Shown here piece after piece: positions 3,285 through 41,021 of a stretch of 41,928 nucleotides of DNA. Position numbers and translations under genes: made by a program. The notes under the pieces are model-generated. The model was not told where the DNA came from. It ran no database searches and was given only the letters and a program-made list of their open reading frames with translations. How positions within the stretch are numbered: the stretch's first letter is position 1; every line of letters begins with the position of its first letter. This stretch comes from Deltaproteobacteria bacterium (GTDB lineage: Bacteria; Desulfobacterota; GWC2-55-46; JADFVP01): the NCBI GenBank assembly GCA_029262515.1, contig JAJCZH010000028.1, forward strand, positions 1-41,928. The letters are read 5' to 3'.

Positions 3285-3345
3285 TTCGGTTCTCACCCCT
3301 ATAAGTACTGTACCGATCAAGTCTTTGATACCACTTCGGCGTACC

Positions 3346-3383: not shown

Positions 3384-3503
3384 CATTAAGGGAGAACTTC
3401 TTAAGCTATTTATGCAGAGTATATAGCATGCACCCCTACTAATTACAAATAACTACCTGTTCTATAAAGACAAATTGCTATTTCACAAAAAAGCTATCTC
3501 GAC

Positions 3504-3929: not shown

Positions 3930-4077
3930 TTTATACCTCCTCCCACTTTATTTAGATGATAAGCTCAATTACCCCAATAGAATATGTTACTTACCATACC
4001 ACAACCCCAGGCCTCATTCTTGACACCGATAAATATGTCTAAAAAAGTACGCAAGTTACTGAGACAAAAGGCGAAAC

Positions 4078-4083
4078 TATAAT
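4078..4083 (+). promoter_or_regulatory. TATAAT -10 box upstream of the small membrane-protein gene
   Basis: A perfect TATAAT with only a weak TTACTG (4056-4061) 16 bases upstream. It lies about 95 bases before the 4176 start in the divergent region 3930-4175, where nothing else is recognisable. Confidence 0.3.
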
Positions 4084-4175
4084 TATGGCTTGAATTATTT
4101 GCCCCCAACGACTATTGTACTCAAGAGGGCTTCAACTAAGCACCTAAACGTAACCAGGTAGAGCATGAGGTTCGA

Positions 4176-4493: not shown

Positions 4494-4645
4494 GGAGCCG
4501 CGGCCATTACAGGCTTTCGCCTGCTGAGTTTCAGAACTAATAAAGAGAGCTATTAACTAAACAGGTTGAGCTTCACCAGCTTCAAAGACGAGTAGATCAA
4601 AACTCCGTCTCTGCATAACACGGAACCTATTAGGGAGGTAGTAGA

Positions 4646-24741: not shown

Positions 24742-24750
24742 TGCTATAAT
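24742..24750 (+). promoter_or_regulatory. Extended -10 promoter of the HEAT/glycosyltransferase operon
   Basis: TGCTATAAT is an extended -10 (TGnTATAAT) with a perfect hexamer at 24745-24750. No good -35 is found 17 bases upstream, which is usual for extended -10 promoters or those needing an activator. The leader to ATG 24942 would be ~185 bases. Confidence 0.6.
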
Positions 24751-24941: not shown

Positions 24942-26270
24942 ATGATTCTGATTACGCATATTATCATCCTTACCATACTGGGACTCGACCTTGCCGCCTT
25001 CATCATTATTATCGGTAGAAGGTACTATATGGGAAGGTTCCACCGCCTTCTGGATATCGAACGGGAGAGGTGTCTTGAGATCAGAAGATCATTAGAAGTC
25101 AGCACCGATTTTACCGAGATCGCGCTCCTTAGAAGAGAGCCCGGTTCTATCGGCTGGAGGGCGGTCGAAGGCGAACTATTCAAGGCGCTCAAGAGTCCGG
25201 ACGCGAACAGAGGCTATATCCGTCTCTTCTTCGACCTGCTCGGTTATACGGACAGTTATATTAATACGCTGAACGCATCCAAGGAGTGGGAACAGGCCTC
25301 GGCGCTTGAAAAACTCAGCCGTCTCAAGTGCGCGAAGTGTTTGGCGCCTATAATTCAAGCCCTGGACTCACCGAAAAGGGACGTAAGAAACATGGCGGCC
25401 TACGCGCTCGGCGAGATCAGACGTAAAGAGACCGCTATCCAACTGATAAAACATATGAAAAGGGTTGCTCTGAACGATGAAGAGAGCTCTATCAGGATCA
25501 TAAAGTCGGCACTTATCTCATTTGGGAACTCTGCACTTCCGGCCCTGACACCGGAGTTGAAGAACAATAAATGGCGGGTACGGGCGGCAGCAGTAGACAT
25601 CTTATCGGAAATCGGCACGGATCAAGTCATTCAGCCGCTTATAGACACACTCACGGACCCGGAGCGCGACGTAAGAGCAAAAGCCGCCAAAGGGCTCGGC
25701 AAGATTAGAGATGTAGCATCCGTACCGGCGCTACCGCTACTATCAAAAACAACCGACCAGTTCTGGGTCGTGCGGCTCCACGTGGTCCGCGCCCTCGGAA
25801 TGATAAAGGACCCCATTGCGATAGAGTGTTTGAGCGTGAGGCTCGGAGACAACAAATGGCAAGTACGAAACGCCGCTGCCACGGCACTCGGCACAATAGG
25901 CGCCGACGCATATCTTGTGCTAATAGAGCAGTACCTTCGCAGCAACGACCGGTACACGAAAGAGCAGGCAAAAGAGGAGCTTGCAAAATCGAGGGTCATC
26001 GACTCTCTTGTTGACTTTATAATCAAAAACAGAGACCGGCTATCTGCAGAGAAACCGGTCTCTCAGCCCCTGATAAACGGAGGCACCATACCGCCAGCGG
26101 TCTACGTAAAGATGACGGACCTGCTGGTATCGAGCGGCAACGAGGTATCGGCGGAAGTTATAAGAAGCCTGACCTGTGAAAAGATGGGGTTGAAGGAGCG
26201 TTCCAGAGCTATAGAGATCCTTAAATCTTTCAGTAACGGGGCCGGGCATGAACCACGGCACAGCCATTAA
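24942..26270 (+). CDS. Membrane-anchored HEAT-repeat protein
   Basis: The 442-residue protein has one N-terminal TM helix (~3-24) followed at once by basic residues (GRRYYMGRFHR), so the rest is predicted to be cytoplasmic. Residues ~60-115 form an alpha-helical region. From ~118 to ~325 there are five or six HEAT/PBS-lyase-type repeats, with the recurring pattern P-L-I-x-x-L then (D/N)-x-x-x-(D/Q)VR-x-x-A-A-x-A-L-G-x-I. The last ~110 residues are helical and charged. HEAT arrays bind proteins. Being first in an operon with a glycosyltransferase and an outer-membrane barrel, it may be a scaffold or regulator of polymer synthesis (inference). The start has only a weak ribosome site. Confidence 0.85.
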   Translation: MILITHIIILTILGLDLAAFIIIIGRRYYMGRFHRLLDIERERCLEIRRSLEVSTDFTEIALLRREPGSIGWRAVEGELFKALKSPDANRGYIRLFFDLLGYTDSYINTLNASKEWEQASALEKLSRLKCAKCLAPIIQALDSPKRDVRNMAAYALGEIRRKETAIQLIKHMKRVALNDEESSIRIIKSALISFGNSALPALTPELKNNKWRVRAAAVDILSEIGTDQVIQPLIDTLTDPERDVRAKAAKGLGKIRDVASVPALPLLSKTTDQFWVVRLHVVRALGMIKDPIAIECLSVRLGDNKWQVRNAAATALGTIGADAYLVLIEQYLRSNDRYTKEQAKEELAKSRVIDSLVDFIIKNRDRLSAEKPVSQPLINGGTIPPAVYVKMTDLLVSSGNEVSAEVIRSLTCEKMGLKERSRAIEILKSFSNGAGHEPRHSH

Positions 26271-26281
26271 CGGAGTTAAAG

Positions 26282-27742
26282 TTGCTTGAGTACCTGCACA
26301 TAATAATAATATGGTTCAATAACCTGGTGATCGGTTACTATGTCTTTGCCAACATACTCTATCTCGTCCTCTTCAGTGCGGCGGTCTGGGGTATATTGAG
26401 GCACCTGATGCGCCTCGACTACGGTAACTATCAGGAATCGATCAACCCCGCTATCGCCCCGCCTGTAAGCGTAATAATATCCGCTTACAACGAAGAGGCC
26501 AATATAGTAGAGAGCGTGCGGTCGCTGCTCAGGCAGAACTACCACGACTTCGAAGTCCTGGTCATAAACGACGGCTCTACGGACTCGACCCTGAAGCGGC
26601 TGATAGACAGCTTCTCTCTTAGCCGGTCCGACCTAGTCTACCGCGACATCATCGAGACCGCCCCGGTAAGGGGTTTCTATATAAACCCTGAGAAGCCGAA
26701 CCTCATCATCGTAGATACGGTCCACTCCGGCAAGCCCGACTCGCTAAACGTCGGCATAAACGTCTCTCACACTCCGTACTTCTGTACCGTAGACGCCGAC
26801 ACGGTACTCGAACAGCATGCCATATTGAGCCTCATGCGCCCGATCATCGAAAAACCGGAACTTATAAAAGCAACGGGAGGAATCGTCCGTGTGGTTAACG
26901 GTTCTACGGTAGAGAACGGCAGGCTGCTCAAGGTCGGCCTGCCGAACGACTCCTTATCGCGGCTCCAGGTAGTGGAGTACATCCGGAGCTTCCTCTTCGG
27001 CAGAGCCGGGATGAGCGCCCTCAACTCCCTTGTAATCATTTCCGGAACCTTCTCGATGTTTCATAAAAAAACGGTGCAGGCAGTCGGCGGTTATATCCAG
27101 GCCATCGTTACCGAAGATATGGAGCTGGTGCTCAGAATCCACAAACATATGCTCGACACTGGACAGAAGTACAGCATAAACTTCATACCAGACCCTATAT
27201 GCTGGACAGAGGCGCCGAAAGAACTGAGGAACCTCGCAAGACAGAGGCGGAGGTGGCATACCGGGCTTGCGGAAACGCTCTATGCGTACCGCTCGATGTT
27301 CCTGCGCCCGCGCTACGGCAGAATCGGTCTCTTCGCCCTTCCGTACCAGTTATTGATAGAGCTGTTCGGCCCGGCTATCGAGATCTTCGGCTACGTGATA
27401 GTCACCACCTCATTCCTTGCAGGGGTGATCGACCTTGAGTTCCTAATGCTATTTCTCACCCTCTCCGTGCTGCTCGGTATCTTCTTCTCAACCGGCGCTA
27501 TACTGCTCGAAGAGATTACCTACAGAAGGTATCCGAAGTTAAAGAGCGTGCTTCTTCTTCTATTTTACGGGGTGATCGAGAACTTCGGCTACCGGCAGAT
27601 AATAAGCCTGTGGAGGACCCAGGCCCTGATAAATGCTCTCTTTAAAAGAAAAAAAGGCTGGGAGCACGTAACCAAACACGGCTTTAAGACCAAAGAAGAG
27701 AAAACAGAAGCGGATGCCACTATTGAAGCCACCAAAGGATAA
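26282..27742 (+). CDS. Processive family 2 glycosyltransferase (PgaC/IcaA/BcsA-like polysaccharide synthase)
   Basis: A membrane polysaccharide synthase of 486 residues. Two N-terminal helices precede the GT-A domain with PPVSVIISAYNEEANI, VLVINDGSTD, the DxD motif in TVDADTV, TED in VTEDMELVL, and QRRRWHTG (the Q/RxxRW motif of processive enzymes). Three or four C-terminal helices follow. All catalytic residues are intact. No PilZ domain is fused. The start is a TTG at 26282 with CGGAG 8 bases upstream, 11 bases after the HEAT gene. The polymer (poly-GlcNAc, glucan or another) cannot be told from the sequence. Confidence 0.93.
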   Translation: MLEYLHIIIIWFNNLVIGYYVFANILYLVLFSAAVWGILRHLMRLDYGNYQESINPAIAPPVSVIISAYNEEANIVESVRSLLRQNYHDFEVLVINDGSTDSTLKRLIDSFSLSRSDLVYRDIIETAPVRGFYINPEKPNLIIVDTVHSGKPDSLNVGINVSHTPYFCTVDADTVLEQHAILSLMRPIIEKPELIKATGGIVRVVNGSTVENGRLLKVGLPNDSLSRLQVVEYIRSFLFGRAGMSALNSLVIISGTFSMFHKKTVQAVGGYIQAIVTEDMELVLRIHKHMLDTGQKYSINFIPDPICWTEAPKELRNLARQRRRWHTGLAETLYAYRSMFLRPRYGRIGLFALPYQLLIELFGPAIEIFGYVIVTTSFLAGVIDLEFLMLFLTLSVLLGIFFSTGAILLEEITYRRYPKLKSVLLLLFYGVIENFGYRQIISLWRTQALINALFKRKKGWEHVTKHGFKTKEEKTEADATIEATKG

Positions 27743-27770
27743 AGCCAATACAGTAAAGGACACCCTGTTT

Positions 27771-29366
27771 ATGAATAGACTATTTATCATGCTTGTCAGT
27801 CTGGCCCTGCTGTTGCCGTCCGCCGTATTAGCTGCTGATTCCGAGGGCAACACAAAGGATACTGATAAAGACCTGAGTGTGGACAGTAGTATCGCCACAC
27901 CCGGCGCTTACACCTTAACTATCACCACAGAAGAATTTTATGAAGAGTTGATGAGCAGAGCTCGTGAATTCAAAGCGGATAAAAATTATTTCGAAGCCGC
28001 CAACAGCCTGCTAGGCGCGGCAATACTCTCCGAAGACTCAAAGGGCAGAGAGCTAAGGATAGAAGCGGCAAGGCTCTACGGCTGGAGCGGAAGGTACGAT
28101 ATTGCAGAAGCTATCTATGGGGAAATCTTAAAAAAGGAGCCCGAAAGCAAGAGAGCTAGGCTCGGGCTCGCTCAGATATACTCATGGTCCGGGCGGCATG
28201 CCCAATCTTTACAGGAGTACGCCAGGGTCTTGAAACTGCAGCCCGGAAACCCTTCGGCGCTTCTCGGGCAAGCACGAGTAAAGTCGTGGATGGGTGATTA
28301 CGATGGAGCCATAAAAGGTTTCTCCGCTCTGCTCAAAATAGATCCTGACAACAACGAAGCGAGAGAGGCTAAGGCGCGCACCCTCTGGTGGCAGGGAAAA
28401 CATGCTTCGTCCATAAAGGAATTGGAACGAATACTGGAGAAAAAACCGGACAATAAAGAGATAAAACGGCTAAAGAGGCGCGTTGAATGGGATGCGGGGC
28501 CGACACTCTCCGTAAAGGGCAGCCAGTCCAGCGACTCGGACTCGAATGAAATCAACTCACTCAAAGCAATAGTTTATATAAACCACAATACTGCCGGCAA
28601 GCTCCACTTCGAGTTCACGCGATACAACGTCAGCAGGAAGAAAGACAAAGGGCATGCAACGGTTCTGACTATAAGAAATTCAACCCGTGTTACCGGCAAG
28701 CTGAAGATAAAACCGACTATCTCACTAATAAACTCAAAGTCCGGCCCGGCTTCCAACTCTTACATGACCGTCGGGGTTAGAGCCGAGGTCAAAATAAACA
28801 AGAGACTCCGGGGCACAATCTCGGCACGCCGTTCGCCATACCTCGATACCGCGCAACTTATAAGAAACAATATCCGTGTGACGAGCTACTCCGGTACTCT
28901 TAGCTATGATATTAAAAAAAGAACGACTCTCAGCGCAAGCGCCGGTTTCAACGACTACTCGGACTCCAACACAAGTTATACTCTAAGAGGAAACCTCGCC
29001 CATACCGTTTTTAAAGAGCCGGACTACACAATAACGGCAGGTTACATACCAGAGTACAGAGAGTTCTCTAAAACAACATCGAGCGGGTACTACAACCCGC
29101 CTAGGCTCTTCTCAAACGACCTCTACTTGAATATAAAAGGCCTGCTCTACAACGACGACCTGGTATACAATGCAACAATTACGGCAGGTCTGCAAAACAG
29201 CAGTACAAAGACCGAATACACAGGAGCGCTCCGAATAGGCGCTACTTACTATATAAAAGAGAACTTCAATGTAGAGGCGGAGGCCAAGTGGAGCAAGTCG
29301 GCGCTTGAGACCTCAACAGGTTACAGGTCAGAGACCTACAAGGCCGGACTCAACTATCTCTTTTAG
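27771..29366 (+). CDS. TPR/beta-barrel outer-membrane protein (YaiO-like exporter candidate)
   Basis: Read from ATG 27771 (531 residues) because MNRLFIMLVSLALLLPSAVLAAD is a textbook signal peptide with AAGGA upstream; the frame to 27714 overlaps the previous gene. Residues ~55-200 are four or five TPR units with repeated LY-x-W-x-GR/Y-x-x-A and P-x-N/S-x-x-A patterns. The remaining ~300 residues alternate polar and hydrophobic positions and end in Leu-Phe, which marks an outer-membrane beta-barrel. The layout is that of YaiO-type proteins and reminiscent of PgaA/BcsC/AlgK-AlgE exporters. It probably passes the polymer made by the upstream synthase through the outer membrane (inference). Confidence 0.85.
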   Translation: MNRLFIMLVSLALLLPSAVLAADSEGNTKDTDKDLSVDSSIATPGAYTLTITTEEFYEELMSRAREFKADKNYFEAANSLLGAAILSEDSKGRELRIEAARLYGWSGRYDIAEAIYGEILKKEPESKRARLGLAQIYSWSGRHAQSLQEYARVLKLQPGNPSALLGQARVKSWMGDYDGAIKGFSALLKIDPDNNEAREAKARTLWWQGKHASSIKELERILEKKPDNKEIKRLKRRVEWDAGPTLSVKGSQSSDSDSNEINSLKAIVYINHNTAGKLHFEFTRYNVSRKKDKGHATVLTIRNSTRVTGKLKIKPTISLINSKSGPASNSYMTVGVRAEVKINKRLRGTISARRSPYLDTAQLIRNNIRVTSYSGTLSYDIKKRTTLSASAGFNDYSDSNTSYTLRGNLAHTVFKEPDYTITAGYIPEYREFSKTTSSGYYNPPRLFSNDLYLNIKGLLYNDDLVYNATITAGLQNSSTKTEYTGALRIGATYYIKENFNVEAEAKWSKSALETSTGYRSETYKAGLNYLF

Positions 29367-29394
29367 GATCGATAACTTTTTACAGGAATAGAAG

Positions 29395-29934
29395 ATGAGC
29401 ACAGAAAAGAAAGTCTGGATAATAGTCGTAGTCTCAATAACCCTCTTCGCCTTCGGACTCTACAACGTCTACAAGCCCGACACTCTGCCTATGAATTTCG
29501 TAAGGGGTGATGTACGGGAGATTACGCCCGGAGTGCTTATAGGCCCGTACCCGACAGAGCGGGAGATCAAGCGGTTAAAACGTATCGGAGTAGTGGCATT
29601 CGTCAACCTGATGGACTCATCCAACCCGCTCGAAAAGGATCTTTTTAAAGTAGAGCAGAGAGCCGCAGAGAAGTACGGCCTCACGGTTTTAAATTTTCCG
29701 ATGGGTTTTATAAAACTCGGCAGCAAGGCGAACACGGCTACTGTAGCAGAGGCCGTCAAACGGACCATGGAGATAACGACAGCCCCCGAAGAGTCTATCT
29801 ATGTCCACTGCTATCTCGGCAGGCACAGAGTGGGTGTCTTTGCAAAGGCGTATATAAAAGCGCTCGACCTGAAAAACAGAAAGACCAGAACTGTAACAAA
29901 AAAAGAGAACCCATCCGAGACCGTTCCTCAATAA
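29395..29934 (+). CDS. Membrane-anchored CX5R (dual-specificity/tyrosine) phosphatase-like protein
   Basis: A 179-residue protein with one N-terminal TM helix (~8-22, preceded by KK, so the domain is predicted on the periplasmic side). The domain follows the bacterial DSP-like fold: VLIGPYPTEREIKRLKRIGVVAFVNLMDSS and then the P-loop H138-C139-YLGRH-R145-V. Nucleophile Cys and phosphate-binding Arg are present; the usual Ser/Thr after the Arg is Val. The terminal ~25 residues are Lys-rich and polar. It is the last gene of the exopolysaccharide-like operon, 28 bases after the barrel gene with AGGAA upstream. The substrate may be a phosphoprotein, lipid or sugar phosphate. Confidence 0.82.
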   Translation: MSTEKKVWIIVVVSITLFAFGLYNVYKPDTLPMNFVRGDVREITPGVLIGPYPTEREIKRLKRIGVVAFVNLMDSSNPLEKDLFKVEQRAAEKYGLTVLNFPMGFIKLGSKANTATVAEAVKRTMEITTAPEESIYVHCYLGRHRVGVFAKAYIKALDLKNRKTRTVTKKENPSETVPQ

Positions 29935-29941
29935 ATAAAGA

Positions 29942-29967
29942 CCCCGCCGCTCTTTAGAGCGGCGGGG
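29942..29967. terminator. Terminator hairpin between convergent operon and htpG
   Basis: CCCCGCCGCTCT (29942-29953) and AGAGCGGCGGGG (29956-29967) form a perfect GC-rich stem. On the minus strand it is followed by TCTTTATTTATT, a proper U-rich tail for htpG. On the plus strand the tail is not T-rich, so it may end the phosphatase transcript less efficiently. Confidence 0.85.
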
Positions 29968-30000
29968 CCGACATAAATCCTGGTACAGCTATTAACTAAC

Positions 30001-31920
30001 TCAGCTCGGCTCTACCGGGTTCCCGGCCATGATCCTGGCCACCCTGTTGACGAATGCGGTCGAGTCCTTCGGTTTCGAACCCTCAAGAAGCAGAGCCTGA
30101 TCGTAAAGCAGCTCCGTGTACTCTTTTAAAAGCTCACTCTCGGCATCGGTCTCCAGAATAGCCGCCATCTTCTCAAAGAGCGGGTGGGCAGGGTTTATCT
30201 CGAGCGTCTTTTTATGCTCTGGCACCTCCTGGCCCATAGACTTCAACATGCGCTCCATGTTTGGATCCATCGCCCCCTCATCCGGCACAAGACAGCACGG
30301 CGAGTCTTTTAACCTCGACGACAACCGTACACCGCCGACACTCTCCTTTAACTGCCCCTCGATTAGACCTATCAGCCCCTTGAACTTGGCCTCAAGCTCC
30401 TTCTTCTCTTCAGTCTTCTCTTTATCTTCCGAGTCTACGTTGAGGTCGCCTTTTATAACCGACTTAAGCTTCTTGCCCTTATACTCCACGCTACCCATCA
30501 CCATGTCGTCTATCTCATCGAGCATTATTAAAACTTCGTACCCCTTCTCCTTAAAGACCTCCAGGTACGGGGAGTTCCCGGCCTCTTCTTTATTAGTAGC
30601 GGTTATGTAGTAGATATCCTCCTGCCCCTCAGCCATGCCCTCTATATACTGATCGAGACTCCTAAGGCTATCACCTTCGGACTTTGTGGAGGCAAAGAGC
30701 AGCAGCTCACTTATAGCCTCTTTTCTCTCGAAGTCGAAGTGAACGCCCTCTTTCAAGAGCCTGCCGTACTCGGTATAGAACTTGACATACCTGTCGTACT
30801 CCTTCTCCTTCAAATTCTTGATCCTGCCGAGCACCTTCTTGGTAATGCTGTTCTTTATCACTTCGACCTGAGAGTTATTCTGCAACATCTCGCGCGATAC
30901 GTTGAGCGGCAAGTCAGAGGAATCTACCACGCCCTTTACGAACCTCAGATACTGCGGCAACAGCTTCTCGCAGTGATCGAGTATCTTAACCCTCTTGACA
31001 TAGAGAGTGAGGCCCATCTGATACTCCTTGTAAAGTATGTCAACCGGCCTTGTTGCGGGTATAAAGAGAAGGCTGGTAAACTCCGAGGTACCCTCTACGT
31101 TATAATGAATAACATCGAAGGGGTCGGCATAGTCGTGAGAGATATGCTTGTAGAACTCATTATACTCTTCACCAGTTATATCGGACTTGCCCTTGAGCCA
31201 GATCGCCTTCTGCGAGTTGAGCGTCTCTTCTTCGGTAATCTTAACCTTCTCGCCTTCGGCCACCGTGCTATCGACCTCCTTCTCTACGTCCATGACTATC
31301 TGGTGCTCAATAAAGTCGGAATACTTCTTTACGAGACTCCGTACCTGCCAGTCGTCGAGGTACTCATCCTCGTCAGACCTGATATGGAGTATGATATCGG
31401 TACCCTTGCCCTCTTTTTTCACGTCGTCAATTGTAAAAGAGCCGTCCGCGGTACTCTCCCACTTAATACCCGTGTCGGCATCCGCACCGGCTTTTCTTGA
31501 GAGCACCGTAACCTTGTCAGCAACTAAAAAAGCTGAATAAAAGCCAACGCCGAACTGGCCGATAAGTTCCGGGTTGTCCTTCGCCTTGCTCTCCTGCAGC
31601 GCAGTTACAAACTCCTTGGTTCCGGAGTGGGCAATAGTACCTAGCTCGGTTATCGCCTCGTCCTTTGTCATGCCAATACCGTTATCGCTTATGGTCAGCA
31701 ACCCGGCCTCTTTATCAACCGCGATCTTGACCTTGAAACCGGTATCCCCCTCAAGAATGGACGTATCCGTCAGCGACTCAAAACGCGCCTTGTCTATCGC
31801 ATCCGATGCGTTGGAGATCAGCTCGCGCAGAAATATCTCTTTGTGCGAATAGAGAGAGTGAATCATCAGGTCGAGCAACTGCTTGGTTTCGGTCTTAAAC
31901 TCCATCTTCTTTTCGGTCAT
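30001..31920 (-). CDS. htpG: Hsp90-family chaperone HtpG
   Basis: A cytoplasmic ATP-dependent chaperone of 639 residues, the usual length. The N-terminal GHKL ATPase domain has SHKEIFLRELISNASDAIDK, TISDNGIGMT and GQFGVGFYSAFLVAD with all nucleotide-binding residues. The middle domain has LYVKRVKI, RFVKGVVDSSDLPLNVSRE and the catalytic Arg region. The C-terminal dimerisation domain contains RLKDSPCCLVPDEGAMDPNMERML and ends after a charged helix. It is monocistronic, with a loose AAGGAAGG ribosome site. No sigma-32 consensus or CIRCE element is visible upstream, so heat control is not apparent. Confidence 0.98.
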   Translation of the reverse strand: MTEKKMEFKTETKQLLDLMIHSLYSHKEIFLRELISNASDAIDKARFESLTDTSILEGDTGFKVKIAVDKEAGLLTISDNGIGMTKDEAITELGTIAHSGTKEFVTALQESKAKDNPELIGQFGVGFYSAFLVADKVTVLSRKAGADADTGIKWESTADGSFTIDDVKKEGKGTDIILHIRSDEDEYLDDWQVRSLVKKYSDFIEHQIVMDVEKEVDSTVAEGEKVKITEEETLNSQKAIWLKGKSDITGEEYNEFYKHISHDYADPFDVIHYNVEGTSEFTSLLFIPATRPVDILYKEYQMGLTLYVKRVKILDHCEKLLPQYLRFVKGVVDSSDLPLNVSREMLQNNSQVEVIKNSITKKVLGRIKNLKEKEYDRYVKFYTEYGRLLKEGVHFDFERKEAISELLLFASTKSEGDSLRSLDQYIEGMAEGQEDIYYITATNKEEAGNSPYLEVFKEKGYEVLIMLDEIDDMVMGSVEYKGKKLKSVIKGDLNVDSEDKEKTEEKKELEAKFKGLIGLIEGQLKESVGGVRLSSRLKDSPCCLVPDEGAMDPNMERMLKSMGQEVPEHKKTLEINPAHPLFEKMAAILETDAESELLKEYTELLYDQALLLEGSKPKDSTAFVNRVARIMAGNPVEPS

Positions 31921-32863: not shown

Positions 32864-34555
32864 TTACACTACTACAAACGTATCGGCTGCACTAGGTGCC
32901 TCTGTAGTGGCCGTAAAGGTGAACTTCTTCGATGCCCCAACATAAGCGGTTATATCTGTCGCCTGGTCCTTAAGCACGCCGGAAGTCCAGATTATAATAC
33001 GCCCTTTGTAATGATCGTCAGTCGCTTCGGTCAGGTTGGTCGTCATCTCTGTCGTAGAAAGAGTACCTGCCGCTGCAGCACCGGTGACTATAGCCCCTGC
33101 CGATGCTCCGAGATTTGTGGCCGCAATTGCAGAGCCAGCCATCTTGCCGACGTCTACCGTCTGAGTTGCAGGATCGAAGTCCTTGAGAGCCGCGACGTTG
33201 GTTGTCAGGGTATCCATTTTGCCGTCATGCGTGGCGAGATTCGTAGTTGTTGCGAAACCGACTGCGGTGAGCCATGCGGTATCTCCCTGATTTCTTATGG
33301 CCTCAAGAGAGTCGGTAGTGCTGCTGAATGTAGCGCCCTTAATATCGGTCAGGTGAGTATTTGCCGTATCGAGCTTTCCGTCGTGTGTGGCGAGAGCGCC
33401 CGAAGTGGCCGCGCCGTCCGTACCCCTCATGTCGGTATTGGCTGTCACCGTTCCAATAGTCACGGCACTCTGGTCGGGAGCTAAGCTAAAGCCCGTCTTG
33501 TCGCTCACCGTAACCGAGGTAGCAGTCAGCCAATTCCCCTGATTCGCCTGAAGGTCAGCGGTATTGGTAAGTATATCGTCCAGGTGTTCGTCTACAGAAC
33601 CAACAGAAGGTGCGCCGCCAGTAGGTGTCAGTTTCATAGCATCGCGTACCTGCTGCTGCGTGAGACTGCTTCCAGCCACACCGACATCATCAACCGTCTT
33701 AGTGGTAACAGCATCAGCGTTTTCAAAGAAAATATCGAAGTTACCCGCAATACGGCCAGCCGTTGTCTCTGTGATTAGAGTATTCAAATACCCCTGAACA
33801 AGCGCGTCTACCGCTCCCCCGGCAGTGATTACCATGCTGGCAAAATTGGTCGGGAATGCTTGCGAGAGAGAATAACCGGTTTTATCACTATTTGTGCCGA
33901 CAGTTACCGTATCAACAGCAGGATCGAAGTAAGCCGCCGCCGCTAAAGTCCTAGCATTGAACTCGGCAACAGTCGGTACGTTGGCTATGTCGGTCGGTAA
34001 GTTCGCTGCATCCAGTTCGGCAAGCCTTCCTTCCGTGCAGACAGTGGCAAGAGCTGCACTGTCCGTACCCCTCATGTCGGTATTGGCTGTCGTAGTATCA
34101 ACCAGCACAACGCCCTGAACCTTATTGGTTGCGGGGTCGTAACCGGCATCGGCAAAGTCTTTAAGGTCGGTTGCGGACTGCGCCACGCCACCCATCTCTG
34201 TAAGATTGGCTTCTATCGCACCGGAGCCCGGAGCCGCATAGAGCGCATCGTATGCAGGGGCACTCATAACCAGAGCCATTAGTCGAGCGGTTAAAGCTGT
34301 GGCATTGTTGAAAAACATGTCCATTGGACCGTAAGTATCTACGTCGGAAGTCAGGAGGGTCATGCAGTAAACACCAGACGAAACATGAGTAACACCGTCA
34401 ACAGTTTTGCCTACCAGGGTGGTACTGCCAGCCTTTTGGAACCGTATATCAGATGTCAAAAAGGTTAGACCGGTCATAAAGGTAGTACCCTCAAGACCCA
34501 TCATCGGGCCGAACATTACATACTGTTCTGTGTTATGCCTTAACGGTTTACTCAT
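32864..34555 (-). CDS. Repetitive phage tail-fibre-like protein
   Basis: A 563-residue Thr/Ala/Asp/Asn-rich protein without cysteine clusters or TM segments. The head (~1-100) contains FMTGLTFLTSDIRFQKAG and a GVYCMTLLTSDVDTYGPMDM region, resembling neck domains. The body is made of degenerate repeats (ANTDMRGTD..., LATHDGK(L/M)DT, SDKTG(Y/F)SL), and a ~75-residue C-terminal beta-rich domain starts at YKGRIIIWTSGV. The length and trimer-like repeats suggest a side or tip fibre. Start ATG overlaps the stop of the beta-helix gene (TAATG). Confidence 0.65.
   Translation of the reverse strand: MSKPLRHNTEQYVMFGPMMGLEGTTFMTGLTFLTSDIRFQKAGSTTLVGKTVDGVTHVSSGVYCMTLLTSDVDTYGPMDMFFNNATALTARLMALVMSAPAYDALYAAPGSGAIEANLTEMGGVAQSATDLKDFADAGYDPATNKVQGVVLVDTTTANTDMRGTDSAALATVCTEGRLAELDAANLPTDIANVPTVAEFNARTLAAAAYFDPAVDTVTVGTNSDKTGYSLSQAFPTNFASMVITAGGAVDALVQGYLNTLITETTAGRIAGNFDIFFENADAVTTKTVDDVGVAGSSLTQQQVRDAMKLTPTGGAPSVGSVDEHLDDILTNTADLQANQGNWLTATSVTVSDKTGFSLAPDQSAVTIGTVTANTDMRGTDGAATSGALATHDGKLDTANTHLTDIKGATFSSTTDSLEAIRNQGDTAWLTAVGFATTTNLATHDGKMDTLTTNVAALKDFDPATQTVDVGKMAGSAIAATNLGASAGAIVTGAAAAGTLSTTEMTTNLTEATDDHYKGRIIIWTSGVLKDQATDITAYVGASKKFTFTATTEAPSAADTFVVV
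33416..33446 (-). repeat. 31-bp direct repeat in the fibre gene, copy 1
   Basis: Identical to 34061-34091. Both copies encode the (A)NTDMRGTD unit in the same frame, 645 bases (215 codons) apart. Perfect DNA identity within an otherwise diverged protein repeat points to recent duplication or gene conversion. Confidence 0.85.
34061..34091 (-). repeat. 31-bp direct repeat in the fibre gene, copy 2
   Basis: Exact second copy of 33416-33446. Recombination between the copies would delete exactly 645 bases, which keeps the frame and would yield a fibre shorter by 215 residues. Confidence 0.85.
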
Positions 34556-35544
34556 TATATAAATCCTTCCCTTTGTCTATGGTGATGCAGGATAGCCATG
34601 TTGAGAGTTCCCCCAAGACCTGCGGCCACATACTCATCAAAGCCCGGATCGCAAGTGGTTCCCGACCTTGTATCGCCATCAATATCTGTAGTAGGAACGT
34701 TAGCATCTGATGTTGGTCCAATACCTTGCCCGATGCAAGACGCGCTCGACGCAAGGTGATAATCCGAGCCTACCGATGTGAAAATATCTGTAGGCGTTCC
34801 CTCGGTTATTGCAAAACTATTGGTACCGTACTCATAAGTATCGTCACCAGCATTATAATCAGAAGCTGCGTCAGGGCTTGAACTAAACGACCTGCCGGTG
34901 CAGTTTATACCTATACAATTGGTCCATAAAGTTTTACCAGAAAAGGAGAAAAATCCATCTGCGGTCATACCCTCAGCGGTACTATTGGTTACTTTAATAC
35001 CTCCAGTAGACGAGGCATTAGTATAATATCCATACGCCCAGCCGCCATAGGCAAGGCAGTTCTCAATAACGCAGCCATCCGTAGCCCCGGAATGAGCAAT
35101 AGCTTTACCCGGATTATTTCCGCCCCATAAAAAAATACAATTTCTGAACGTTATATTACCAGTATTGAGTCTTGCGCCATCTTGGGTGCTACCCGTAGTT
35201 GATGTATTTTTAAACAACACGCCATCTATAGTGCAATAAGCATCACTTACATCAAATATTCCCCCAAACGTATTGCCCAACTCTATTCTAAAAGAACTGG
35301 TACCATAAGTGCCGTTATGCTTTGCCGATGAATCTGTTTGAATTAAAATATTACGTGTAGCGTCAGTGGTGAAGTTGCTTATGTAGATATGACTGGTTTC
35401 TACAAAATTAAAAATATTGGCTATTACGTTTTCGTCGTTTGTGACAAGATCACCGGACGTGGCTCCGCCATTATTAGAATGCCACAACGCGAGAGTTGCA
35501 TAGTCTTTACCCGTTCCAACTGTTTTAGTAATGGCAGTAGGCAT
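34555..35544 (-). CDS. Right-handed beta-helix phage protein (tailspike-like)
   Basis: A 329-residue protein with the hallmarks of a parallel beta-helix: regularly spaced short strands such as YCTIDGVLFKNT, NITFRNCIFLWGG, GCVIENCLAYGG and GIKVTNSTAEGM, plus WTNCIGINC, each with Asn/Cys ladder positions. The N-terminus, TITKTVGTGKDYATLALW-like, is the opening common to polysaccharide lyase-like beta-helix proteins. In phages such folds form tailspikes that bind or cut surface glycans; no catalytic residues can be assigned. It starts right after the stop of the upstream gene and overlaps the fibre start by one base. Confidence 0.7.
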   Translation of the reverse strand: MPTAITKTVGTGKDYATLALWHSNNGGATSGDLVTNDENVIANIFNFVETSHIYISNFTTDATRNILIQTDSSAKHNGTYGTSSFRIELGNTFGGIFDVSDAYCTIDGVLFKNTSTTGSTQDGARLNTGNITFRNCIFLWGGNNPGKAIAHSGATDGCVIENCLAYGGWAYGYYTNASSTGGIKVTNSTAEGMTADGFFSFSGKTLWTNCIGINCTGRSFSSSPDAASDYNAGDDTYEYGTNSFAITEGTPTDIFTSVGSDYHLASSASCIGQGIGPTSDANVPTTDIDGDTRSGTTCDPGFDEYVAAGLGGTLNMAILHHHRQREGFI

Positions 35545-36348
35545 CTATTCGCTCAGTTTATCTATAAATTTAGAAAGCAATTGCGCTTTTGTTAGGGTGA
35601 TGTGACCGCCCTTTGCGAGCACAAAATCCACATCGGCAGCAGAAATATAAAACCGCCTTAAACATTCAACCCTATTTGCTTTAAATTCAATGTCTCTCTT
35701 TAACGCCTGAAAGACATCATCACGTCCAAAGGTTACTTGAGTTTTTTTTGTAGGAACGTCTGTAATAATAAAAGTACCGCCTCTGTCCGTTAGCGCCCCC
35801 TCTATAGCATCAACCGTATGTGCCGTAGCGGAGAAGTCTATTTCTACCCGGTGTTCGCCAGTGGCTTTAACATAATTAACCTCAGAGAAGACAATACCTG
35901 TACGATTGCGCCTTACGAAGCCGCCAGAGATTATAGTATTATAAATACTAACATCAAGAATCACTTCATTATCGGCTATGGAAAACACAGTGACATTCCA
36001 ATTAGTGAGAAGGGTTTCTATATCTGCGCGTGAGAGTTTGCCGAGACCGCTGACATTAAAGGAATTGGTATCATTCTTGACGCGTACTCTATACCCGTCA
36101 AGAGCAACATTATGTGCAACGATAGAATAGGATATACGACGCGCCCACATTTGAAAGTATGTGCGAGCAGCTGCCGTTGATAATTCAGGACAGCTTATCC
36201 TTATGAAATTCGGAGGAATAACCTCTTTCCCCGGATCAACACCATCGTCAAGCACATCAACAGGGTAGCCCTTTTTATAAGAACCAACCTTGTCTTTTGC
36301 CGGGTCGGTATGAACATTATCAACCGCTCTGAAAATCAGTTCTGACAT
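35545..36348 (-). CDS. Phage structural protein of unknown function
   Basis: A 267-residue protein without signal or TM segments. The N-terminus MSELIFRAVDNVHTDPAKDKVGSYKKGYPVDV is a type I associate with small phage-tail or capsid accessory genes. The middle has a mixed alpha/beta pattern, and the end repeats a short 'LTDRGGTFIITDVPTK' style module. I do not recognise a family. It abuts the beta-helix gene without a gap and lies between the lysis cassette and the fibre genes, so a tail-associated or assembly role is likely by position only. Confidence 0.55.
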   Translation of the reverse strand: MSELIFRAVDNVHTDPAKDKVGSYKKGYPVDVLDDGVDPGKEVIPPNFIRISCPELSTAAARTYFQMWARRISYSIVAHNVALDGYRVRVKNDTNSFNVSGLGKLSRADIETLLTNWNVTVFSIADNEVILDVSIYNTIISGGFVRRNRTGIVFSEVNYVKATGEHRVEIDFSATAHTVDAIEGALTDRGGTFIITDVPTKKTQVTFGRDDVFQALKRDIEFKANRVECLRRFYISAADVDFVLAKGGHITLTKAQLLSKFIDKLSE

Positions 36349-36371
36349 TTTACCGTTTTACCCCTGCCATG

Positions 36372-36470
36372 TTACTTTCCTATTCTCTTCGCTATCTGCT
36401 TAATAGCCAATATGGGATATAGGAGCAACAACAATATTACTGCTTTTATCTTCATGCCTATATTCTTCAT
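36372..36470 (-). CDS. 32-residue single-TM peptide next to the holin
   Basis: ATG 36470 overlaps the holin stop (ATGA) and the frame closes at TAA 36372-36374. The product is one hydrophobic helix (VILLLLLYPILAI) between short basic ends (MKNIGMKIK and KQIAKRIGK). Position and coupling suggest a holin partner, antiholin or other membrane peptide. It may also be noise because of its size. Confidence 0.45.
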   Translation of the reverse strand: MKNIGMKIKAVILLLLLYPILAIKQIAKRIGK

Positions 36471-36913
36471 TTCGGCTTAACCACCCTTTCTACGGTTCTT
36501 AAGGTACCGAGACCAAGCAGAGCGTAAAGAAGTTTCATAAGAGTCTCAGTGCCGACTACCGGCATTACAAACGGAGCGTTACCCGCTACTACAGGCATCA
36601 AACCCCTGATGATAGCTTCGAGGATAGGTGAGAGTAAAGCCGCATACGCTAAGCCGAAAACGCAGAGCCAACCAGTTGCAGGCCTCCAGCCCGATTTAAA
36701 GAACGAACCTGACTTGGCGTCAATCTCGTTAAGAGTCCCCTGGGCCTTGTCCATCTCACCGACAGCCTGGATGAGGACCTCTTTAGTCTTGGGTGGTAAT
36801 TCGCCTGTTAAGGCAGTTCTAAGAGCGACAGCCGCGTTACCCACCCCTTCAGCGGCCTCACTGACCCCGGCACCAGTAGCGGTGCCGAGGAGCTTTGCGA
36901 GAGAGAATCCCAT
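36467..36913 (-). CDS. 3TM-type phage holin
   Basis: A 148-residue protein that should form inner-membrane lesions so that the endolysin can reach the cell wall. A helical N-terminal half (~1-65, Ala/Glu-rich) is followed by FFKSGWRPATGWLCVFGLAYAALL, the diagnostic segment of 3TM holins, and two more hydrophobic stretches (PVVAGNAPFVMPVVG, LMKLLYALLGLGTLRTVERV). It lies in the same cassette as an M15 endolysin. Confidence 0.8.
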   Translation of the reverse strand: MGFSLAKLLGTATGAGVSEAAEGVGNAAVALRTALTGELPPKTKEVLIQAVGEMDKAQGTLNEIDAKSGSFFKSGWRPATGWLCVFGLAYAALLSPILEAIIRGLMPVVAGNAPFVMPVVGTETLMKLLYALLGLGTLRTVERVVKPK

Positions 36914-36934
36914 ATTACCTACCCCCTTTTATAC

Positions 36935-37312
36935 CTAAAACCCCCAACCTATACCGGCAGTAACCTCACCGACCTGTCCTATTGCACCAAAGTCGTTGAC
37001 CGGGAAGCGCGTCCTTGCGGACACTTCAAAATAGCCGGTCTGAAAGAATACCCCGGCAGAAAGGTCGATATCTTCTACTCTGTCGCCGGGATCGTAGAAT
37101 GCAGAGGTATCTATGCCGAAGCCTTTAAAGAGCTTCGCCTTCGCCCTGGCCTCTACGTTGATGTCCTGCGAGTTAAACTCAGGGTTGGTGAAATCTACGT
37201 CATGGGAAGCCTGAACATAAAGCTTCTGTACGTCTGCCGCGTTCGCGCTGAATGCGGTAAGACCAGCCACTAAAACTATTGCCAAAAACAGTGATACGAT
37301 AAGACTCTTCAT
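36935..37312 (-). CDS. Exported small beta-rich protein, possible outer-membrane barrel, in the lysis cassette
   Basis: A 125-residue protein with a strong signal peptide (MKSLIVSLFLAIVLVAGLTAFSANA|AD). The ~100-residue mature part has about six amphipathic strands separated by polar turns (KLYVQASHDVDF, INVEARAKAKLF, IDTSAFYD, IDLSAGVFFQTG, FEVSARTRFPV, EVTAGIGWGF) and ends in Phe. That is the pattern of an outer-membrane beta-barrel protein recognised by BAM. It overlaps the endolysin gene by 4 bases and precedes the holin. Candidate roles are superinfection exclusion, an outer-membrane lysis factor, or lysogenic conversion. I recognise no family. Confidence 0.6.
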   Translation of the reverse strand: MKSLIVSLFLAIVLVAGLTAFSANAADVQKLYVQASHDVDFTNPEFNSQDINVEARAKAKLFKGFGIDTSAFYDPGDRVEDIDLSAGVFFQTGYFEVSARTRFPVNDFGAIGQVGEVTAGIGWGF

Positions 37313-37794
37313 CCGTTACTCTCCTTCTCTTTAAACTTCGCCGTTGTGTATGCGTACACTTCAGCGAACCCTTCGAGGCCAAAATGTATAACCTCGCCTA
37401 TGTAACCCCAACGCGCCAACTCACCACGGCAATCGAGGTGAAATCCGGGGCTGTTCCAATCCGGGTATATCCCGAAACCTACTCTGTTAAAGACTTGCAG
37501 CTCCTTGAATATGTTAAGCAGATAACCGACCTGTAAATCGTATGGGATCTCCGTGACTATATGAAAATCGACGGCGTTCCCTTTGTAGTGCTGAGACCTG
37601 GACGTATGGCCACCGGTTGCGTACCCGGCATGGATTACGATATAGGCGTCCGGGTCGAGTTTTCTGATAGACTTCCGTACAGCCGACAATAGCAACAAAA
37701 TCAGCCCGTTCATTTCGTATGGCGTACTCCACGCATTTTTATTGTTATACTGTTCAGCCGGGCTAAAGCCTTCTATTGCTTCCCAGACGATCAT
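37309..37794 (-). CDS. Phage endolysin, M15 peptidase (D-Ala-D-Ala carboxypeptidase-like)
   Basis: A 161-residue zinc peptidase predicted to cut peptidoglycan cross-links. The M15_3-type metal ligands are visible: His69 and Asp76 in SRSQHYKGNAVDFHIV, and His119 in PGFHLDCRG. There is no signal peptide, so it needs the holin to reach the wall. Its start overlaps the upstream coiled-coil/TM gene by 4 bases and its stop overlaps the exported-protein gene by 4. A host-type M15 protein called HedgeHog/VanY-like is the alternative, but context favours a phage lysin. Confidence 0.85.
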   Translation of the reverse strand: MIVWEAIEGFSPAEQYNNKNAWSTPYEMNGLILLLLSAVRKSIRKLDPDAYIVIHAGYATGGHTSRSQHYKGNAVDFHIVTEIPYDLQVGYLLNIFKELQVFNRVGFGIYPDWNSPGFHLDCRGELARWGYIGEVIHFGLEGFAEVYAYTTAKFKEKESNG

Positions 37795-38063
37795 CCTCCC
37801 TGTCCTCCACTCGCAATAAACTTTTTTATGAAGTGTCCCACGAAAACTATTGCAAATGAGACACCTGCCGATATGCCTGCGACTCTCACCCTCGTATTAT
37901 TTAAGGTCTTCTCGATGCTCTCAAGCTTCTCCCATTGATCTTTATTAACTGCTTGAAGGTCTTTTTTTAGACTTTCCTGCGCCGACTTCACACCGTCAAC
38001 AGAGCCCTTCAATTCCCCGACTATTAATAAAACCTTGTTCATTACTTCACTATCAGGACTCAA
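37791..38063 (-). CDS. Coiled-coil/TM phage protein (XhlA-like lysis accessory)
   Basis: Ninety residues: an acidic/basic helical region with heptad character (~8-58, LKGSVDGVKSAQESLKKDL...WEKLESIEKTLNN), then one TM helix (VAGISAGVSFAIVFVGHFI) and a short basic tail. This is the architecture of XhlA/hemolysin-like lysis accessory proteins that act with holins. It overlaps the endolysin gene by 4 bases. Confidence 0.65.
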   Translation of the reverse strand: MSPDSEVMNKVLLIVGELKGSVDGVKSAQESLKKDLQAVNKDQWEKLESIEKTLNNTRVRVAGISAGVSFAIVFVGHFIKKFIASGGQGG

Positions 38064-38073
38064 GAAAGCCTCC

Positions 38074-38508
38074 TTACCAGGTTATATTGTCTTTCCGAGT
38101 AGACCGAATACTCAGTAAAGTGAAGTTACCCTTGTCGCCCCAACCTGCCCTGAACCTGAACCACCTGTTTATGTAACTGATATACGGCAGCGTCCATACC
38201 TTGCCGTGAAACGTGGTGTAGTGAATCCTGCACTTTTGCCAGCCGCCCTTTAAAGCAAAGCTATGTGCGGCGTCCGTTCCCGTTCTGAGCCAAGACCCTC
38301 GACCATTGACCCCTATGATCTTCCAAGTCAGGTTGTGAGCCGGGTTTCGGAGAGCCCACATAACTGTGCTGAGCCACATCGGTTTGCGCTTGAGCACGAC
38401 AACTTTGTACTTCCCTATCCCTATTCTTAACGGCCTCTCGCGGTACCATTTAGGTGGCGTAGGCTCTTCATCATTCCCGAATATCGCCCGTAACAATTTT
38501 ATAAGCAT
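38074..38508 (-). CDS. Phage protein of unknown function with RNPxHN motif
   Basis: A 144-residue basic protein, rich in Trp/Arg. A region with WALRNPAHNLTWKIIGVNG (~51-69) resembles a motif I have seen in small uncharacterised phage proteins near lysis modules. Other features are RERPLRIGIGKYKVVVLKRKP and a C-terminal FRAGWGDKGNF. There is no signal peptide and no clear TM helix. Function is unknown. Confidence 0.6.
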   Translation of the reverse strand: MLIKLLRAIFGNDEEPTPPKWYRERPLRIGIGKYKVVVLKRKPMWLSTVMWALRNPAHNLTWKIIGVNGRGSWLRTGTDAAHSFALKGGWQKCRIHYTTFHGKVWTLPYISYINRWFRFRAGWGDKGNFTLLSIRSTRKDNITW

Positions 38509-38525
38509 GGCGCTACAGCCTCTAT

Positions 38526-39386
38526 TTAAAATTGCTCAACCTCAATAACTCCGGCACCGCCAGCTGCGCCGTTGCCCGCGTTAGCAGTCCCTCCCGTCCC
38601 GCCGTTAGCCTGAACTGTGCCGTTATTTGTATAGGCTCCGGTATAAATCAAAACAGAACCACCGCCGCCGCCGCCGCCGCCTCCGCCGGGATTTGAGCCG
38701 TTAGTCGCATTACCGCCGTTACTTCTGACAACTCCAGAAGCACCAATCGTTACTATCGGGGCTATCAATATTATGCAGCCGCCACCGCTTGCCCCGGCAC
38801 CACCAGAAGCGTCTCCGCCGCCGCCACCGCCGCCGCCGACTCTAAATTGTTCAAGCAAGCCAAAAATAACCTCGTCTATACTATGTACGTTTCCCGCACT
38901 GCCATTGTTAGCGCCAATAGCACCGCCAGCGCCCCCTGCTGTTGTCCTTTTCAGGTAGGTAGTAGCTCCCCCGTTGCCGCCCGCCTGTGAAGAATGTCCG
39001 CCACCGCCACCGCCCGACCCTGCTTCACCGGCACCGCCTGTGCCGCCTGCGCCCGATCCGGCATTTTCTGCTGTGCCGTCAGAATGCAGAGTGCCATTGA
39101 TAGTAATAGAGGTCGACGCCACGATTACAATGACGGGTCCGTTAGAGACGTTAACAACGTGGCTCGTATTTATAATAAAAGCAGTATGTCTGTATATTCC
39201 GGAAGAAAGAGCACCCGACCCAACCGTAGAATAGGAAGAGTCCGAGCCATCACCGTAAACACCGAAAGAGGAATCTAGAGTTGCTTTGAGAAAATCGACG
39301 TTCTGGTTGAGCGTCTGCATATCGCTCGCTTTGAGGGCAGCATCGATTGCAAAGGCTATGGCATCGTTTATATTTACGTAAGGCAT
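38526..39386 (-). CDS. Glycine-rich tail-fibre-tip/adhesin-like protein
   Basis: A 286-residue protein. The first ~50 residues are helical (INDAIAFAIDAALKASDMQTLNQNVDFLKATL), as expected for attachment to the tail. From ~105 onward it is built of Gly runs (four of six or more Gly) interspersed with short hydrophobic strands (CIILIAPIVTIGA, SVLIYTGAY) and ends in VIEVEQF. Alternating poly-Gly motifs and strands recall polyglycine-II sandwich adhesins such as the gp38 type of T-even phages. The DNA has (GCC)6-like tracts on the plus strand at 38664-38681 and similar runs at 38814-38839. Its likely role is host receptor binding. Confidence 0.65.
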   Translation of the reverse strand: MPYVNINDAIAFAIDAALKASDMQTLNQNVDFLKATLDSSFGVYGDGSDSSYSTVGSGALSSGIYRHTAFIINTSHVVNVSNGPVIVIVASTSITINGTLHSDGTAENAGSGAGGTGGAGEAGSGGGGGGHSSQAGGNGGATTYLKRTTAGGAGGAIGANNGSAGNVHSIDEVIFGLLEQFRVGGGGGGGGDASGGAGASGGGCIILIAPIVTIGASGVVRSNGGNATNGSNPGGGGGGGGGGSVLIYTGAYTNNGTVQANGGTGGTANAGNGAAGGAGVIEVEQF

Positions 39387-39395
39387 AAAACTCTC

Positions 39396-41021
39396 CTATG
39401 CAAAAACTTTGGCTTCATCATTGGCAGCGCCGAGCTTGCCGTTGTTGTCAGCGAGAAATGCGTACTTGTTCTTCTCTTCATCCGTGGCGCTGTCGTAGGA
39501 CGGTACCGTGTCCGGAGCGTAAAGGGCGTAGCGGCGTCCGAAGCCGGTGAGCATCACATCGTAATGAACGGCGCCGCCCATGATATCGAAAGACTTGTTG
39601 ACGATCTCCGTTACCCTGTCCATGCCCCTGATGCCCTTTTCAGTGTCCGGTAGTTTTGGGTAAGAGAGGTCGACAAGCTCGCCAACATCGAGCAGGTGTT
39701 GCGAATAAAAGGCCTGCACCTTAACCAACGGTACGGGGTTCTTGAAACGCTGCTTGATCCGGTTCCAGCGTTCGAGCACGATGTTGTCGCCGTTGAGCTC
39801 GCTCCTGAGCCCCCGGCTCGATATCTCATGCCTTGCAGACTCGCCGTGGTCGGATATCGACTGTCCGTCCGAGTACTCGATGTTCTTCATGTACTTGTCC
39901 TGAATAAGGTCGTGGTCGTACTCGAAGAAGGCTATGTTTATTATCGCCGCGTGCCCGCCGTCCATGCTCTTGACCTTGGCAACCTTTTCATCAAGCTTAT
40001 TGAGGCTGGCAAAGGGTACCGGCGGAGCAAAGGCCTTGAAAGAGAGGGCGCCTGTTACCGTAATAGGCGCATAGGCATTGAGAACCGTGAGAATCTCGTC
40101 TTCGATGAACCTCTTGCCGTCTACCTTGCCGTCGTAGATAAAGCGGAACTGGTAGCCGTATGTAAGGTCAGCCTTGTTAAACCGGATCCAAGCCTCGGCA
40201 TCGTTCTCCCATTGAGTCACATCAACGAGACTCTGGCTAACCCCGAGGCTCCAGTGTGAGGGCAGGGTGTCGTACGTGCCGTTGGTACCGGCTCCGGTAG
40301 AGGTGAGAACCTTGAGCCCTATCGCTATCGGGTGCTCCTCGAAGACGATAAGCTCGGTGATGTCGCTATCTACCGAGTGCTGTACGTCCGTAGTACCGAA
40401 CTGAGCACGCGCAATAGTGAAGGTCGTAGCGGTCTTTGCGGTCCACTTGATTATCTCGTCTTCTATACGGATATAACCGCAGGTGCCGAGCTTCGGATGC
40501 ACTACCGTGAGAAAGGCGCTGGTATCGTCTACCGTGGCCGTAGTCGCTGCCGCGTTGAGCTGGGCCGTGAGGGTCGTTGTCTTCGGTTTGAAGATATCCT
40601 TCTTTATCGTGCGCTGGATATCGGCTGTCTTGAACATATACTCGATAAGGCTTTCGCCGATATCGAAACCATCGACCAGATTGGTTGAAAGAGGTATGTA
40701 CTCGCTCTCGTCTATCTCGTCGTACCCGCCCCAAAGCACGGCCTCTTTATTCTTTACAGCGCTGGCCACAAGAGCAGTTATGCGGTCGGCCTTATCCTGA
40801 AGGCTGAACCGGAGCGAACCGATAGAGGCTCTGCCTTCCTCCGGGGTTATCGTCTGAGAGATAGCCTTTATATTGCCGAGGCCGAGGATATACGACCTGG
40901 TCGCACCTTTGACAGGCTTAAAGGCGAACCAGCGGTCGGAACCGCCCCAGTTCTTGACCTGGACAAAGTAATTGGGTGACTTAACCCTTTTGGCTGTTTC
41001 GAGATCGTAGACGGTACCCAT
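39396..41021 (-). CDS. Large phage tail protein (tail-hub/baseplate candidate)
   Basis: A 541-residue soluble protein. It opens with a beta-rich domain (~1-120: YFVQVKNWGG..., FAFKPVKG, ASIGSLRFSLQDKADRITALVAS) and has a second domain around 145-240 with LTAQLNAAATTATVDDTSAF and a VHPKLGTCGYIRIEDEIIKWTAKTATTFTIARAQFGT motif, which is common in tail-hub-associated proteins. The C-terminal half is alpha/beta with FDIMGGAVHYDVMLTGFGRRYALYAPD. It follows the discoidin gene directly (one-base overlap). A hub or tail-tip role fits the position after the tape-measure gene; the exact family was not identified. Confidence 0.65.
   Translation of the reverse strand: MGTVYDLETAKRVKSPNYFVQVKNWGGSDRWFAFKPVKGATRSYILGLGNIKAISQTITPEEGRASIGSLRFSLQDKADRITALVASAVKNKEAVLWGGYDEIDESEYIPLSTNLVDGFDIGESLIEYMFKTADIQRTIKKDIFKPKTTTLTAQLNAAATTATVDDTSAFLTVVHPKLGTCGYIRIEDEIIKWTAKTATTFTIARAQFGTTDVQHSVDSDITELIVFEEHPIAIGLKVLTSTGAGTNGTYDTLPSHWSLGVSQSLVDVTQWENDAEAWIRFNKADLTYGYQFRFIYDGKVDGKRFIEDEILTVLNAYAPITVTGALSFKAFAPPVPFASLNKLDEKVAKVKSMDGGHAAIINIAFFEYDHDLIQDKYMKNIEYSDGQSISDHGESARHEISSRGLRSELNGDNIVLERWNRIKQRFKNPVPLVKVQAFYSQHLLDVGELVDLSYPKLPDTEKGIRGMDRVTEIVNKSFDIMGGAVHYDVMLTGFGRRYALYAPDTVPSYDSATDEEKNKYAFLADNNGKLGAANDEAKVFA

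Follow-up and report, generated by a model that had tools for sequence, protein, structure and literature searches.

Four genes at positions 24942-29934 of a deltaproteobacterial contig (JAJCZH010000028.1, assembly GCA_029262515.1; the 41,928 nucleotides analysed are called the window) very probably encode a machine that makes and exports a sugar polymer. The reading favoured here with good confidence, including the mechanism proposed below, is that of an uncharacterised synthase-dependent exopolysaccharide (EPS) system of the HEAT-GT2 family, in which a HEAT-repeat protein and a family 2 glycosyltransferase (GT2) stand side by side. The HEAT partner would belong to a conserved core carrying interchangeable accessory modules, and the window would hold the phosphatase variant. 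The initial annotation, made from the DNA letters, had described four co-directional genes for a HEAT protein, a GT2, a TPR/barrel protein and a phosphatase, and Pfam and NCBIfam agreed on all four identities. As called, the four open reading frames (ORFs) are intact, on the same strand and tightly spaced:

24942..26270, plus strand: HEAT-repeat protein, 442 amino acids, ATG start (Pfam HEAT_2, E=4e-36)
26282..27742, plus strand: processive GT2 polysaccharide synthase, 486 amino acids, TTG start (PF00535, PF13641, PF13632)
27771..29366, plus strand: TPR plus 16-strand outer-membrane beta-barrel exporter (ORF listed from 27714; AlphaFold2 model, PDB fold matches)
29395..29934, plus strand: membrane-anchored Cys-based phosphatase of the dual-specificity/protein tyrosine phosphatase (DSP/PTP) type (PF22784, E=1e-6; loop HCYLGRHRV)

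The TTG start of the GT2 gene is preceded by GGAG, and the orthologue in locus L010 begins with ATG at that position. For the barrel gene, the ATG at 27771 is a likelier start than 27714, because it aligns with the start in locus L015 and yields a standard signal peptide. With it, the short gaps described earlier hold throughout the set (11-28 nt), the listed 29-nt overlap of the GT2 and barrel genes probably being a 28-nt gap.

The synthase matched its three Pfam families with E=1e-13 to 1e-19. The D, DxD, TED and QRRRW motifs that had been read as intact were all found (D97, D171xD173, E278-D279 and Q321RRRW325), and D97, D171, D173, D279, Q321, R322, R324 and W325 are invariant in 64 members of the HEAT-GT2 family. 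Hydrophobic segments flank the catalytic domain on both sides, so the protein has both the motifs and the membrane helices of the processive GT2 of a synthase-dependent EPS system. The exporter was modelled by AlphaFold2 as a TPR solenoid joined to a 16-strand barrel, with a mean predicted local distance difference test score (pLDDT) of 88.0, the predicted architecture of the outer-membrane exporter of such systems. Its five best PDB matches were BcsC, BcsC, the PgaA barrel (4y25), PelBC and BcsC. Export of a polysaccharide by the modelled barrel is well supported, because every one of the best solved fold matches is an exporter of polysaccharide; no other evidence for export is as strong, and with the conserved GT2 motifs it bears out the earlier description of synthase-dependent EPS-type machinery. 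The pair might instead make a cell-attached envelope glycan or glycolipid rather than a secreted polymer, as would be allowed by its presence in two groups without an outer membrane, Bacillota and haloarchaea. Against this, EPS channels are the nearest solved folds of the exporter encoded in the operon, and similar barrels are found repeatedly in Gram-negative loci; a cell-attached product is considered quite unlikely.

The four genes co-occur far above chance. A first search of 20 genomes found a clear GT2 orthologue in seven, including the window's own, with HEAT-GT2-barrel-phosphatase intact in three relatives. In the wider set of loci, all four genes stood in the window's order in 16 of 71 with a resolvable GT2, and the flanking genes varied by lineage. 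Among 63 genomes of the window's class, GT2 was found in 23 (E<1e-60). All 15 strong phosphatase matches in the class (E<1e-70) fell within these 23 genomes, each on the same strand as the GT2 gene and 1.3-1.7 kb downstream of it. None of the 40 class genomes without GT2 held a strong match (Fisher p=4e-9, with kinship not corrected for); two weak matches (E about 1e-17) were seen in such genomes. It is therefore hard to credit that the four genes are unrelated co-directional neighbours: some GT2 loci do lack the phosphatase, and the promoter-like signal stands at chance level, but the same order in 16 loci with differing flanks, the 15/15 phosphatase linkage and HEAT-GT2 adjacency in two domains of life argue strongly to the contrary.

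The set is thus conserved, but to call it a four-gene system proved too narrow, as it is one accessory variant of something larger. Judged by profile matches, a far larger family, spread over bacteria and haloarchaea, is built around the HEAT-GT2 pair. When genome contigs were scanned with an alignment of the GT2, 63 loci emerged, in Deltaproteobacteria-type metagenome-assembled genomes, Nitrospirota, Acidobacteriota, Campylobacterota, Bacillota, Bacteroidota, Balneolota, Lentisphaerota and others. A plasmid search added more, in Mesorhizobium, Erythrobacter, Deinococcus, Legionella, Planococcus, Paenibacillus and haloarchaea; the Halosolutus GT2 also has a HEAT gene in the RefSeq annotation. 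On the family profile the plasmid-borne GT2s scored 334-521 bits, compared with 88 for E. coli PgaC, 32 for YaiP and 19 for BcsA, while NfrB fell below threshold. The HEAT gene lies upstream of GT2 in 64 of the 71 loci, as it does in the window. Two haloarchaeal plasmid loci (L081:5235-7365 and L088:4871-7368) have a response-regulator gene near the pair, and in one of them the pair adjoins glmS and a sugar-phosphate nucleotidyltransferase gene.

Three arrangements surround this core. The first, HEAT-GT2-barrel-phosphatase, comprises 16 loci including the window. In the second, HEAT-GT2 is followed by a TPR/hydrolase-like protein of about 800 amino acids, with or without a NodB-type deacetylase, and then by the barrel. 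In the third, found in Bacillota, HEAT-GT2 is followed by a 362-411-amino-acid protein and a phosphatase with several transmembrane (TM) segments; the missing barrel is as expected, because Bacillota have no outer membrane. A phosphatase of this multi-TM kind is also found in one locus from Lentisphaerota. The phosphatase and the 800-residue protein each occur in 20 of the 71 loci and never together, a count in which kinship is not corrected for. The accessory module thus comes in two alternative forms, of which the phosphatase is one. These modules appear to have been swapped, because the deacetylase-bearing locus L028 nests within the phosphatase-bearing clade of the tree, in which the placement of reference synthases is unreliable owing to long branches. 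The statement that the system has no deacetylase partner stands for the window locus, where none was found, and not for sister operons, in which a NodB-type deacetylase often accompanies the TPR/hydrolase-like protein.

Two proteins of the alternative arrangements deserve description in their own right. The first, of about 800-960 amino acids, has an N-terminal TPR part and a large conserved region outside Pfam (L031:8470-10887, L042:8361-10802 and L055:8430-11303), and is also present in Deinococcus, Paenibacillus and Planococcus. Pfam recognises its TPR part only, 'hydrolase-like' referring to motifs judged by eye; it may represent an undescribed glycoside-hydrolase-like family. The second is the 362-411-amino-acid Bacillota family between GT2 and phosphatase (L043:8391-9479, L051:8305-9540 and L053:8355-9449), for which two members scanned gave no Pfam match and one searched gave no credible PDB match. 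No catalytic domain was found in the 800-residue partner or the 362-residue Bacillota protein by Pfam or PDB sequence searches.

The HEAT protein has a single N-terminal TM segment (residues 7-25). Lysine and arginine are commoner after this segment than before it in 57 of 61 members, and because of this charge bias the HEAT repeats probably lie in the cytoplasm, next to the catalytic domain of GT2. Since the list of HEAT neighbours came from a profile iterated on those neighbours, Pfam served as an independent check: HEAT_2 was matched by all 27 diverse members tested, and only about four genes of the window's genome exceed the HEAT_2 cut-off. The HEAT protein is proposed to be a partner or co-synthase of GT2. 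Matches of the HEAT protein in PADLOC look like generic repeat matches and were set aside. Directly upstream of the HEAT gene, locus L023 encodes a long protein (2461-5319) that is rich in coiled coils and has a LysM domain at its C terminus. ORFs of similar size lie upstream of HEAT in several deltaproteobacterial loci (L018, L024-L026, L029 and L032).

The phosphatase belongs by Pfam to the PTP-SAK/DSP type. Its catalytic loop places C139 and R145 in an HCX5R motif whose Cys and Arg are invariant in 20 loci, and the loop, HCYLG[RK]HRV, is nearly invariant across phyla. Its structure model has a DSP fold (pLDDT 88.6) around this loop, as in Cys-based DSP/PTP phosphatases. Fold matches were led by 4kyr (E=4e-6), which we take to be the plant glucan phosphatase LSF2, and included PFA-DSP1, DUF442, TpbA and SEX4. 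The fold leaves the substrate unfixed, because diverse DSP folds match with broadly similar TM-scores. The plant glucan phosphatases (SEX4; 4kyr) offer a precedent for a Cys-phosphatase acting on a polysaccharide; their identity to the window protein is 16-21%, their match scores resemble those of inositol-pyrophosphate and DUF442 phosphatases, and the window protein lacks a carbohydrate-binding module. The initial annotation had called the phosphatase periplasmic. Multi-TM versions from Bacillota and Lentisphaerota carry 3-6 Lys/Arg residues before their last TM segment, and because of this bias the catalytic domain is probably outside the cytoplasm; the charge pattern thus agrees with the earlier placement, which it makes probable rather than certain.

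A substantial minority possibility is a signalling role like that of TpbA: as a periplasmic enzyme, the phosphatase would switch the synthase by way of a membrane diguanylate cyclase or kinase, leaving the polymer untouched. TpbA, which is not known to be encoded in an EPS synthase operon, shares with the window protein a fold match and, as an extracytoplasmic Cys-phosphatase, a tie to EPS, although many other DSP folds match equally well or better. In Pseudomonas aeruginosa this periplasmic phosphatase represses Pel through c-di-GMP (PMC2691606). The window's genome has 22 GGDEF and 15 PilZ matches, so control by c-di-GMP through a separate protein has a conceivable basis. Nevertheless, no cyclase or kinase gene adjoins the phosphatase in the window, Pfam finds no PilZ domain on the GT2, and the phosphatase gene alternates with the TPR/hydrolase-like and deacetylase genes instead of being added to them.

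Judged by curated cut-offs and missing partners, the window set falls outside the Pga, Bcs and YaiO families. Domain searches of the four genes agreed with the earlier statement that PgaB, BcsB/BcsZ and PilZ are absent from the locus and that HEAT and phosphatase components are extra. The closest comparison is with PgaABCD/IcaADBC, which make poly-beta-1,6-N-acetylglucosamine (PNAG). A divergent Pga system making this polymer, with HEAT in place of PgaD and with PgaB lost or encoded elsewhere, would explain why PgaC_IcaA and PgaA are the best curated matches of GT2 and barrel, both systems having a TPR plus 16-strand barrel. It would also fit the NodB-type deacetylases of sister operons and five polysaccharide-deacetylase matches elsewhere in the genome. 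Both cut-offs are missed widely, however (GT2, 137.8 against 422.3 bits; barrel, 87.8 against 366.65 bits), and PgaC scores far below family members on the GT2 profile. Neither PgaB nor PgaD was found in the operon, none of the four genes matching a deacetylase, and gaps of 11-28 nt leave no room for PgaD. The gene order also differs, and a phosphatase is added. A divergent PNAG system is accordingly judged unlikely.

With the cellulose system BcsABCZ the window shares a GT2 with QxxRW and an exporter whose best fold match is BcsC, but it lacks a PilZ domain on the GT2, BcsB and BcsZ, and its GT2 misses the CelA cut-off (32.6 against 699.1 bits). E. coli YaiP/YaiO/YaiS likewise combines a GT2 with an outer-membrane barrel. 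The Pfam family YaiO (PF19413) was not among the matches of the window barrel, YaiP scores low on the family profile as given above, and the annotation of the E. coli stretch shows no HEAT gene. YaiO barrels do occur in some distant HEAT-GT2 loci (L068, L080 and L086 match PF19413).

The set had been proposed as undescribed, and no description of HEAT-GT2 or of the four genes was found in the searched literature, which omits most subscription journals and all bioRxiv preprints. Papers on Xanthomonas and on lipocone proteins proved to be false leads. The aps cluster of Sinorhizobium meliloti, to which the gene neighbourhood in Legionella had pointed, was rejected as a described homologue: the GT2-family and HEAT profiles found nothing in the unannotated pSymB stretch that we take to hold it. 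This cluster, for an arabinose-containing polysaccharide (PMC7902896), has its synthase gene by UDP-sugar genes, loosely as in the Legionella HEAT-GT2 locus. An earlier partial sighting is possible, because the main survey of EPS operons describes pga loci from the environment in which pgaB and pgaD were not detectable (PMC7112194); it makes no mention of HEAT or of a phosphatase.

In the mechanism proposed for the favoured HEAT-GT2 system, the GT2 would polymerise a nucleotide-activated sugar at the cytoplasmic face, its own membrane helices giving the chain passage. Anchored in the membrane, the HEAT protein would lie on the cytoplasmic side against GT2 and serve as co-synthase or as a scaffold for regulation, much where known systems have PgaD or a PilZ domain. 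Across the periplasm the chain would be led by the TPR domain to the 16-strand barrel, through which it would be exported. At the outer face of the inner membrane, the phosphatase may strip phosphate from the growing glycan, a carrier of the glycan or, in the manner of TpbA, a membrane signalling protein, filling the slot of the deacetylase/hydrolase-like proteins of sister operons. The sugar is most likely an N-acetylhexosamine. This is suggested by weak cues: PgaC/IcaA is the nearest curated family, sister loci carry NodB or PIG-L deacetylases, and a GlmS gene and a nucleotidyltransferase gene adjoin the Halosolutus pair.

Several observations weigh against the favoured reading. The linkage p-value and the module counts both carry the kinship caveat given with them. 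Four related genomes (G016, G044, G045 and G047) have GT2 without the phosphatase, which is therefore not essential. The candidate general-acid residue, position 104, is Asp in only 10 of the 20 loci, and the window copy has Gly there. Finally, the Legionella locus carries UDP-sugar dehydrogenase/epimerase genes, so the sugar may vary between members. A bolder form of the favoured reading is put forward tentatively, as one that may well prove wrong: HEAT-GT2 would be an undescribed synthase class of bacteria and archaea with an obligatory cytoplasmic HEAT solenoid, and its phosphatase variant would make a phosphate-bearing glycan edited by an extracytoplasmic Cys-phosphatase instead of by a deacetylase or hydrolase.

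Two signals lie outside the coding regions:

24742-24750, plus strand: extended -10-like motif TGCTATAAT, a possible promoter (1 match in the window against 1.3 expected by chance)
29940-29969, no strand assigned: hairpin between the convergent operon and htpG, with a T-rich tail on the minus strand

The extended -10 promoter claimed for the operon thus exists as a motif, but at chance level. The claimed terminator is present as a hairpin, but it is weak evidence for this operon, since its T-tail faces the convergent htpG (30001-31920, minus strand). Because of this tail the hairpin serves htpG at least as well as the operon, and it is possibly bidirectional. No Rfam match was found in the window.

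Mrp-antiporter genes and htpG flank the set in the window and in its nearest relative; elsewhere the flanks hold a large SMC-like gene (L011) or other genes (L014). At 5380-8837 the window encodes two adjacent trehalose routes, the gene for a TreT-type trehalose synthase overlapping that for a fused trehalose-phosphate synthase/phosphatase. A prophage-like block occupies 32864-41779 on the minus strand, with a holin (phrog_3427, E=2e-17) and a weak match to a tail fibre; several of its proteins match nothing in PHROGs.

In known synthase-dependent systems, the synthase is controlled by PgaD-like or PilZ/c-di-GMP partners. That a HEAT solenoid is kept by GT2 across many phyla and in haloarchaea suggests a different and widespread control of polysaccharide synthesis. 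Annotators could recognise EPS loci that at present bear no labels beyond 'HEAT repeat protein' and 'glycosyltransferase'. With the phosphatase variant, glycan editing by an extracytoplasmic Cys-phosphatase becomes a testable question.

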